DNA of 64,000 bases from Peptoniphilus gorbachii (GTDB lineage: Bacteria; Bacillota; Clostridia; Tissierellales; Peptoniphilaceae). The DNA lies in NCBI RefSeq assembly GCF_016908115.1, contig NZ_JAFBDH010000003.1, positions 124,001 to 188,000 on the forward strand, read 5' to 3'. Positions within the stretch are counted from its first letter, which is position 1; every line of letters begins with the position of its first letter. Shown here piece by piece: positions 3,979-49,066 of this stretch. A program made the translations under genes and the position numbers. Below the pieces are notes generated by a model. It was not told the DNA's origin. It saw only the letters and a list, made by a program, of their open reading frames with translations, and did no database searches.

Positions 3979-4809
3979 TTATTTGCGAAGGCTTCTTAAA
4001 AGCTTGATTTCTTCTTTATGGCCTTCTAGGTCTTGAGGAGTTTCTAGATAAAAGGGGAGGTCTTTTAATTTTTCGCGATTTATGATTCTCTCAATGGCTT
4101 GGAGACCAATTTTTCTCTTGCCTATGACTTAGTGTCTGTCTTTTTTAGCTCCTCTTTGGTTTTTTGAGTCGTTTAGTTGAATGGCGTAGAGTTTATCAAG
4201 TCCAATGGATTTATCGAATTCGTCTAAGACTCCAGCTAGGTCACCTACTATGTCGTAACCTGCCTCGTGGACATGACAAGTGTCCATGCAGACGCCGACT
4301 TTTTCTTTTAGTTGTACTCCTTCAATTATTCTTGCAAGTTCTTCAAAGTTTGAGTCAATTTCTGTGCCTTTGCCTGCCATGGTTTCAAGCAGAACTATAG
4401 TATCTTGATCTTTTCTAAGAACCATATTAAGTTGTGCAGAAATTATTTCTATTGCAGCATCTACTCCAAGGCCTGTGTGAGATCCTGGATGGAAATTGTA
4501 GAAAGTCTTTTTAAAATATTTTAGCCTCTCTAAATCTTCTGACAAGACTATATTGGCAAACTCTCTAATACTTTCAGTAGAGGAACAGGGATTTAAGGTG
4601 TAGGGAGCATGAGCTAGAAGTGGTCCAAAATTATTTTCTTCTGCAATTTGCATAAGTTTTTCTATGTCAGCTTCATCTAATTTTTTCATCTTGGAACCAC
4701 GGGGGTTTCTGGAAAAAAATTGAAAGGTGTTAGCAGAAATAGATAGAGCTTCTTCTCCCATGTAGGCATAGCCCTTGGCTGTTGAAAGGTGGGCACCAAT
4801 ATAAAACAT
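3979..4809 (-). pseudogene. nfo: Endonuclease IV interrupted by an in-frame stop codon
   Basis: The reading frame runs from ATG at 4809 and codes for an apurinic/apyrimidinic endonuclease. It includes the family motifs [57 protein letters not shown] and [20 protein letters not shown] at 4129-4131 ends it after 226 residues. The same frame then continues for 50 codons to a normal stop at 3979 and encodes the expected tail, with VIGKRKIGL and LPFYLETPQ. The canonical DRHE glutamate is replaced by the stop, and a usual Gly in that motif is Arg. The lost tail carries the last zinc-ligand glutamate (in the LETP motif). Full length would be 276 residues, the normal family size. It is the third gene of cysK-cysE-nfo, 15 nt after cysE. 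A sequencing error is the main alternative. Confidence 0.85.
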
Positions 4810-6280: not shown

Positions 6281-6313
6281 AAAAAAAGAGAGTATATGAA
6301 TTCATATACTCTC
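6281..6313 (-). terminator. Intrinsic terminator between Cys leader peptide and cysK
   Basis: A perfect 13-bp-arm palindrome centred on GAATTC (6288-6313) is followed on the minus strand by seven U residues (6287-6281). It lies between the leader peptide stop (6358) and the cysK ribosome site, so it must be passed for cysK to be expressed. This is the position of an attenuator. Confidence 0.85.
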
Positions 6314-6357
6314 AAAATCTTTCTTTTTCTTAAAAATCTTAAAATATTGATTCACAT

Positions 6358-6441
6358 TCAAATAAGTCCTATAAAATTTTTTATAGAACAACAACAGAAT
6401 GCTTGGCTTGTGAAATTTTTAAAGTTTTTAAAGTTTTTCAT
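6358..6441 (-). CDS. Putative cysteine-sensing leader peptide upstream of cysK
   Basis: A 27-codon frame begins at ATG 6441, has GAGG 8 nt upstream and ends with TGA at 6360-6358. It reads MKNFKNFKNFTSQAF, then CCC, then SIKNFIGLI. The three adjacent Cys codons are TGT TGT TGT at 6396-6388. It starts about 20 nt after the predicted transcription start and is followed by an intrinsic terminator before cysK. The layout is that of ribosome-mediated attenuation of an amino-acid biosynthetic operon. A small hairpin (6369-6386) directly follows the Cys codons, so a ribosome stalled there would cover part of it. I could not identify a clear antiterminator, so the mechanism is inference. Confidence 0.7.
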   Translation of the reverse strand: MKNFKNFKNFTSQAFCCCSIKNFIGLI

Positions 6442-6468
6442 TTTTATCGCCTCATCAATATGGGTCAT

Positions 6469-6497
6469 ACTATACTATTGTTTTTTTGTTTTGTCAA
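6469..6497 (-). promoter_or_regulatory. Sigma-A promoter of cys operon
   Basis: On the minus strand a perfect TTGACA (6497-6492) and TATAGT (6474-6469) are separated by 17 nt. Transcription would start near 6462, about 20 nt before the leader peptide ATG. Confidence 0.85.
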
Positions 6498-6570
6498 GGA
6501 AAAGAAAAATTTGCTTTTTAGAAAAGCAAAGTAAAATCTTTTAATTAAAGCCTGCGGCTTTAGTGCTTAT

Positions 6571-6616
6571 AAGGAGTGGGTTAAGGGGCGTTGCGAGGCC
6601 CCTTTTCCCCCTCCTT
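6571..6616. repeat. Palindromic repeat copy A
   Basis: The left arm (6571-6589) and right arm (6598-6616) form a stem of about 16 of 19 pairs. The right arm GCCCCTTTTCCCCCTCCTT is identical to the copy at 7221, and the loop (GTTGCGAG) differs slightly. Confidence 0.75.
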
Positions 6617-6652
6617 AAACCACCCCCTTTGAACCCAACGCGCTGAAAGTCC

Positions 6653-6736
6653 AAAAAAATCGGTCATGCTAAATTTTCAAAACTCGCTCTTCGAGCTCAA
6701 ACAGTTGAAAATTTTTAACGCATAACCGATTTTTTT
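6653..6736. repeat. Large imperfect inverted repeat
   Basis: AAAAAAATCGGTCATGC at 6653 pairs with GCATAACCGATTTTTTT ending at 6736, and the stem continues through AAATTTTCAA/TTGAAAATTT. Inside is a small GCTC-TTC-GAGC hairpin (6686-6696). The A and T tracts at both ends would let it act as a terminator in either direction. Confidence 0.75.
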
Positions 6737-6930
6737 GCTTATTTTATGCACTCCCGCAAATTTACAATTACCACCAAAGATATTTTTTGAATAGATAATA
6801 ACTATAGGTTTAAGTATAAACTATCACTTTAATTAGTTTTTTTGTGAGGAAGTAGACAGCCTAGCAAAAATAAAAATCTTGTCGGATGATCCCATAAAGG
6901 GAGGAAGCCGTTAAAAAATTCAACTGTGAA

Positions 6931-48801: not shown

Positions 48802-48819
48802 CAATTTAATTTAATAAAA

Positions 48820-49066
48820 GCGTTGAAAGAGAAAAAAGAATTTTTGATGATTTAAGAGAGTTGCCGTCTGGTGCGAGGCAATACACAAAAGTTTAATATA
48901 CACTCTAAAGCTTATTTGTTGAAATTAGTAGGCAAGTACGGAAGCCACCGTTAACTGAGGCTAGAGGTTGTTAGACCTTAAGGTGAGGTAATCTTTTTAG
49001 ATTATAAAATCGGGTGGTACCGCGAAGTCAGTCTTTCGTCCCAATGTGGATGAAAGGCTTTTTTTA
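48820..49066 (+). promoter_or_regulatory. T-box leader 2, aligned specifier TAC (Tyr)
   Basis: The Stem I distal hairpin is TTGCC/GGCAA around GTCTGGTGCGA. The codon before ACTCTAAAGC is TAC (48899-48901). The canonical T-box sequence GGGTGGTACCGCG is at 49012-49024. The terminator pairs CTTTCGTCC with GGATGAAAG and ends in a T-run. The TGGT bulge fits a tRNA with discriminator A, such as tRNA-Tyr, and argues against bacterial tRNA-Trp (discriminator G). Tyr assignment is inference. Confidence 0.9.

Follow-up and report, generated by a model that had tools for sequence, protein, structure and literature searches.

A probable cysteine-responsive leader-peptide attenuator upstream of the cysK-cysE operon in a lineage of anaerobic Firmicutes

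Leader-peptide attenuators are classic for amino acids other than cysteine, and Firmicutes are thought to control their amino-acid genes through T-boxes and repressors, not through translated leaders. In attenuators of the trp/his type, such as E. coli trpL, a run of regulatory codons within a leader ORF is combined with nested competing helices and with an intrinsic terminator located before the operon. For cysteine, uORFC-8-2 is a predicted attenuator of cysS in Rhodobacterales; tandem Cys codons at approximately positions 14-15 lie in the first of two stems, the second one being an intrinsic terminator (PMC8632094). Cys-codon leader peptides devoid of terminators were also reported upstream of cys genes in Actinobacteria (PMC1262725), and in mycobacteria, leaderless polycysteine ORFs that respond to cysteine are described as attenuating translation (Canestrari 2020, cited in PMC13236596). 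Finally, His leader peptides are found in place of T-boxes at hisS/hisZ in Bacilli (PMC2965389).

The leader considered here was identified in the window, that is, the whole stretch of 64,000 nucleotides of DNA that was analysed, which belongs to a low-GC genome of 1.87 Mb. It resembles uORFC-8-2 in the arrangement of its tandem Cys codons and two stems, but precedes cysK in a Firmicute of low GC content and therefore falls outside the setting of uORFC-8-2, namely cysS, a tRNA synthetase gene, in alpha-proteobacteria of the Rhodobacterales. Moreover, uORFC-8-2 mostly uses UGC codons and its accessible description mentions no antiterminator (PMC8632094); by their descriptions the two leaders are set apart. 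As in the polycysteine ORFs of mycobacteria and other Actinobacteria, a Cys run is carried by a short ORF ahead of cysteine genes (PMC13236596; PMC1262725). Those ORFs differ, however, in that the mycobacterial ones start leaderless, in that no terminator hairpin was found and in the translational or Rho mode proposed (PMC13236596; PMC1262725); the ATG of the present leader is 27 nt past the -10 element and follows a Shine-Dalgarno (SD)-like sequence, and its start is thus not leaderless. The His leaders of Bacilli likewise are Firmicutes leader-peptide attenuators that substitute for a T-box, but they concern histidine and genes of the tRNA-synthetase family (PMC2965389). The initial annotation of this DNA had considered a Cys leader peptide an unusual solution for Firmicutes. 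This is fair, except that the replacement of T-boxes by His leader peptides is known in Bacilli (PMC2965389). Searches of an open-access library brought up no description of a Firmicutes cysK gene with a Cys leader, which does not prove that there is none. Since Cys-codon leaders are already known from Rhodobacterales and mycobacteria, and His leaders from Bacilli, the cysK leader is best described as a known class of regulator in a new place, for which the parts of a full mechanism have been identified.

All the elements of the leader lie on the minus strand, and their coordinates are given here in the direction of transcription. The promoter (6497-6469) comprises a -35 TTGACA (6497-6492), a 17-nt spacer and a -10 TATAGT (6474-6469). 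With 11 of 12 positions matching the consensus, it is the top match in the 3.5 kb scanned and deserves the qualification of strong promoter that it had first received; TTGACA and a -10 are also present upstream of the leader in most congeners. The distance of less than 20 nt initially given between the promoter and the leader frame is correct for the ribosome site (15 nt from the -10 to the SD) but not for the ATG (27 nt). The leader ORF (6441-6358) extends over 27 codons, from an ATG at 6441-6439 to a TGA at 6360-6358, and encodes the peptide MKNFKNFKNFTSQAFCCCSIKNFIGLI. It is preceded by an SD-like GAGG (6453-6450) and contains three consecutive, putatively regulatory Cys codons TGT TGT TGT (6396-6388); direct reading of the minus strand agrees with the initial annotation on the frame, the ribosome site and the Cys codons. 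Further downstream, the previously noticed perfect-palindrome terminator is indeed present at 6313-6281, as an 11-bp hairpin GAGAGTATATGAATTCATATACTCTC (6313-6288) followed by a U-tract of seven T (6287-6281). Then come the SD sequence AGGAGG (6270-6265) and the coding region (6259-5369) of cysK, encoding cysteine synthase A (O-acetylserine sulfhydrylase; TIGR01139, 373.9 bits for a cut-off of 350.95), and cysE (5376-4825), encoding serine O-acetyltransferase (TIGR01172, 220.9 bits for a cut-off of 210.65; the protein is also above the cut-off for the EpsC model). The start of cysE overlaps the end of cysK, and cysE is found directly 3' of cysK in 14/14 congeners, the window genome included. 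The operon downstream of the Cys-codon leader consists of cysteine-making genes.

Two features flanking this region deserve mention on their own. Beyond cysE, a deoxyribonuclease IV (nfo) frame at 4129-4809 on the minus strand has 226 aa, for models of 279-297 aa; it is closed by an in-frame stop at 4131-4129, after which the same frame stays open and Nfo-like for about 50 further codons. It is possibly a pseudogene or the result of a sequencing error. On the other side, the intergenic region 6545-6800 contains an imperfect inverted repeat AAAAAATCGGTTATGC...GCATGACCGATTTTTT flanking a TTTGAGCTCGAAGAGCGAG core. A 94% copy is present elsewhere in the window genome (G000:C4:10055-10275), with fragments nearby, and similar elements occur upstream of cysK at L005, L008, L009 and L010. 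The repeat probably corresponds to a small mobile palindromic element.

The leader ORF, the Cys run, the hairpin and the terminator precede cysK in all 14 genomes of the genus (the window genome and 13 others), as does the pattern ATTCTGTTGT-N-GAATG; alignment of the region upstream of cysK, one of the checks suggested at the outset, thus shows the Cys run and the terminator to be conserved in 14/14 congeners. Among the cysK upstream regions of the family, the leader was further recognized in G128, G119 and G153, each from another genus. Start codon and frame are kept in the 17 genomes. An SD-like sequence is kept in 15 of them, reading AAGGAGG in G153 and AGGAG in G006 and G119; that of G001 and G008 is weak. 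The distance from the start to the first Cys codon is 12, 13, 14 or 15 codons, the frame being constant. Three Cys codons are found in 15 leaders and two in those of G001 and G008, which are shorter and clearly different (CysK 69-71% identical). In G119, the codons are TGT TGC TGT, the middle one being synonymous. Besides that of the window, the leader peptides include MKIFKNFTTQAFCCCSIKNFIELI, MFYSNYKNLTAQAFCCCSIKIL, MKNLFLKNSTMAFCCPIYK, MKRFFLQNLSKAFCCPILQ, MLVFKNLGKFNIKTLCCCSIKEIL and MFLQLTSKTPHFLCCCSMTFA; their cores read, for instance, QAFCCCSIK, KTLCCCSIK, HFLCCCSMT or MAFCCPIYK, and the N- and C-terminal parts diverge and vary in length. Nothing in the peptides is constant except the Cys run, the frame is kept despite the variable spacing and G119 uses TGC; the comparison thus points to selection acting on the Cys codons in a translated leader frame. 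TGYTGYTGY alone is common, with 217 occurrences in the window genome, and what stands out is the context in which it is found here.

One may ask whether the ORF is nothing more than a gene for a small protein, with a terminator that ends its own transcript and with cysK controlled separately, as promoter, ORF and terminator do form a complete unit. This appears extremely improbable. The peptide ends diverge and change length and no protein-family match was found for the peptide, the promoter scan returned no second promoter-like site between the terminator and cysK, and the unit always lies directly upstream of cysK, with which it seems to have once travelled (G128, see below).

The Cys codons are embedded in an RNA structure. 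The 5' strand of helix P1, GCAUUC (6402-6397), immediately precedes them and pairs with GAAUGU (6359-6354). Hairpin P2, GUUCUAUAA...UUAUAGGAC (GUUCUAU/AUAGRAC; 6389-6366), begins within the third Cys codon, and the first Cys codons occupy the 5' side of the internal loop between P1 and P2. The hairpin CTATAAAA/TTTTATAG first reported at 6386-6369 is therefore recovered and extended to G6389/C6366. Compared with dinucleotide shuffles, the leader RNA fold has a z of -3.2. When the 17 true rows are counted alone, P1 of G119 (CAUUG/CAAUG) displays a compensatory two-sided change with respect to CAUUC/GAAUG; P1 of G153 (UUCCUAUG/CAUGGGAA) is in a shifted register, and the core P2 pairs are kept through U-A/U-G/C-G changes. 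In a model-fitted alignment, which is biased towards structure and in which some rows are partial antisense sequences, 96.7% of the P1/P2 cells are paired and five pairs show two-sided changes, with 0/500 shuffles as high and at most 46% paired in slid controls; the small MAFFT alignment by itself contains one two-sided change in P1/P2.

P1/P2 is the most conserved part of the leader, its 98% identity exceeding that of the rest of the ORF, and loop nucleotides are conserved on both sides. These observations would suit an RNA that itself senses the signal through P1/P2 and the conserved internal loop, as a riboswitch or a protein-binding element, the ORF being incidental. Such a sensor is nonetheless very improbable, since start, frame and ribosome site are kept in four genera despite different spacer lengths, since the peptides have only the Cys run in common, with a synonymous TGC in G119, and since searches of Rfam with the leader gave no match beyond chance level even at a relaxed threshold.

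The initial annotation had found no convincing antiterminator arm. A candidate does exist, however, and is complementary to the terminator in every lineage. In the window, the predicted antiterminator 5' strand AAUGUGAAUCAAUAUUU (6358-6342) can pair with most of the terminator palindrome, arm and loop, which would double as the antiterminator 3' strand; the resulting helix has 17 bp, contains bulges and amounts to -11.1 kcal/mol. The corresponding duplexes range from -9.4 to -12.7 kcal/mol in 17/17 leaders. When compared with shuffled linkers in 10 leaders, the fraction of shuffles as good is 0.000-0.183, with a Fisher combined p of about 7e-5 over six lineages; the leaders of G006 and G153 do not clearly exceed their shuffles. 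Among 11 close congeners, identity reaches 90% in this strand and 60% in the 22-nt linker next to it, even though the strand is not part of the ORF and, for the most part, not of P1 either. Equivalent pairings are made with different letters in G001 (AUGUGUAAAA:UUUUACAUAU), G008 (AUGUGUAAAU:AUUUACAUAU), G119 (GCAAUGC:GCGUUGU) and G153 (CAUGGG:CCUAUG). G011 has changed on both sides, being the sole congener with GAAUGCG and the sole congener with the loop AUUGCAU.

A second element, A (AUAUUGAU; 6461-6454), is located at the predicted RNA 5' end and is complementary to AUCAAUAU at 6351-6344. Several congeners have lost this pairing or keep a shorter version of it, and clear covariation is absent; tentatively, element A may act as an anti-antiterminator that aids termination of an untranslated leader. 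As a separate candidate for the sole control, a local helix between the B strand and the terminator 5' arm, together with A:B, was considered and set aside as not robust, since in several species its formation does not require a ribosome.

It can also be imagined that the leader does respond to cysteine but that its target is translation, mRNA stability or Rho and not the intrinsic terminator. The mycobacterial polycysteine ORFs, described as attenuating translation (PMC13236596 citing Canestrari 2020), would be a precedent, and the position of the stop codon varies relative to the antiterminator. On the other hand, a strong intrinsic terminator with a U-tract is conserved between the leader ORF and cysK in 17/17 leaders, a complementary antiterminator strand is conserved as well and no strong hairpin of the leader fold includes the cysK SD, which makes this mode of action very improbable.

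The behaviour of the leader RNA was modelled in three states, with a ribosome placed on the first Cys codon, with one placed on the stop codon and with none, the terminator being forbidden via soft constraints. The energy gap measures by how much free energy the terminator is favoured over the best fold that lacks it. In the window, it amounts to 4.6 (stalled), 9.4 (at stop) and 7.9 (no ribosome) kcal/mol, to be compared with 4.2, 13.1 and 11.1 kcal/mol for E. coli trp using the identical method. Folding with and without a ribosome footprint, as had been proposed, thus indicates that a stalled ribosome would narrow the terminator advantage (4.6 versus 7.9). The stalled-state gap is similar to that of trpL, and the modelled shift is in the same direction but of smaller amplitude. 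The modelled stalled gap is below the ribosome-free gap in 16/17 leaders and below the stop-bound gap in 14/17 with a 10-nt footprint and in 17/17 with a 14-nt one; in G007, G006 and G001, the stop codon is inside P2 and the stop-bound model at the 10-nt footprint shows no preference for termination. In none of the modelled states does the antiterminator reach the stability of the terminator, and the same holds for trp; control would therefore have to be kinetic, as for trp by the same method. Beyond its modelled amplitude, the window leader differs from the trp/his type by the amino acid concerned, by its AT-richness, by an antiterminator strand that spans most of the terminator palindrome including the loop, and by P1/P2 holding this strand only in part.

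Taken together, these data make it very probable that the cysKE operon is controlled by a transcription attenuator that is mediated by the ribosome and responds to cysteine. The parts, their conservation, the covariation and the complementarity above shuffles are seen in the sequence, and from them we infer that the leader is translated, that ribosomes stall on it and that termination and readthrough occur, all in dependence on cysteine. The trp/his-type layout first recognized at this locus is upheld by the conservation of its parts in 17 genomes from four genera, by the frame, by the synonymous codon and by the antiterminator. In the proposed mechanism, RNA polymerase would start near 6462 and a ribosome would load on the leader ORF. 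With charged Cys-tRNA available, the ribosome would pass the three Cys codons and reach the stop, over or beside the antiterminator strand; after its release, P1/P2 would fold again and sequester a portion of this strand, the terminator (6313-6281) would fold and transcription would end. If charged Cys-tRNA were scarce, the ribosome would stall on 6396-6388 and cover the P1 5' and P2 5' strands, thereby freeing 6358-6342. The freed strand could then pair with the emerging terminator arm and loop, and the polymerase would read into cysK and cysE.

The distribution of the leader is narrow. Searched in 391 genomes of the class, the pattern TGYTGYTGYTCTAT-N(2-20)-ATAGRAC was found in cysK leaders only, that of G153 included, with one match for the reversed-pattern control. 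The P1/P2 model detects a single copy per genome, always in a cysK leader, in the genus, G119 and G128. Its weak order-level matches in G158, G205 and G239 (E 0.004-0.009 per genome, 249 genomes) are probably due to chance. Among the matches listed for the loose pattern ATTCTGTTGT-N-GAATGTG over genome contigs, most are chance, and the loose family-wide pattern TTYTGYTGY-N-GAATG was uninformative. G128 (L231/L159) is Mediannikoviicoccus vaginalis (Bacillota, Clostridia), which identifies the family studied here as one of the Clostridia. In the CysK tree, it nests within the genus of the window beside G012 (support 98/92). This position, together with a near-identical leader, suggests that the leader and the cysK operon moved together into G128 by horizontal transfer. 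Two changes suffice to account for the presence and absence of the leader on this tree.

Relatives that keep cysK but lack the Cys codons or the frame, which the initial annotation would have counted against the attenuator, were not found within the genus. They do exist outside it: the leader is absent at the closest leaderless cysK genes, those of G145, G146 and G018 (68-74% identical, same family). As related cysK genes outside the genus lack it, the leader is considered a lineage feature. In G145 and G146 (L232, L233), about 100 nt upstream of cysK, a shared stretch GGGTATAT...ACATAGTT...ACTATAGTAACTT.TGGAGG is observed, with an AT hairpin in G145; it is possibly another cis element.

This distribution raises the question of what controls cysK in related organisms. 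Cys T-boxes (RF00230) are found at cysK in two genera of the family, g9 and g17, and also in further families of the order, with TGC at the specifier position in GAAGTGCACC according to motif reading. They serve the same gene and sense uncharged tRNA-Cys, but they bind the tRNA directly, contain no ORF and have a sequence that is absent from the window leader. Covariance-model searches for a T-box gave no match in the window leader, nor in leaders L004, L015, L017 and L018. The window genome has 12 T-boxes elsewhere, none at cysK. Within the window, one T-box leader is located at 48814-49046 on the plus strand (G000:C3:172814-173046; 118.9 bits), and the Rfam L10 leader (RF00557) is found at 374-495, upstream of rplJ-rplL, as expected. 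Given the T-boxes at cysK of relatives and the leader in the present lineage, the leader appears to have replaced a Cys T-box at cysK.

A broader scenario can be put forward tentatively, with somewhat less than an even chance of being right as a whole. A Firmicutes-borne Cys attenuator would have replaced the ancestral cysK T-box in one anaerobic family, would move between genera with its operon and would operate as a three-state RNA switch in which element A competes for the antiterminator strand. Were this true, it would be the first case of a cysteine-synthesis operon preceded by a Cys leader with an intrinsic terminator. The cysK leader would in any event offer a clean natural case in which one sensor of tRNA charging was swapped for another, and a directly testable cysteine switch in anaerobic bacteria.
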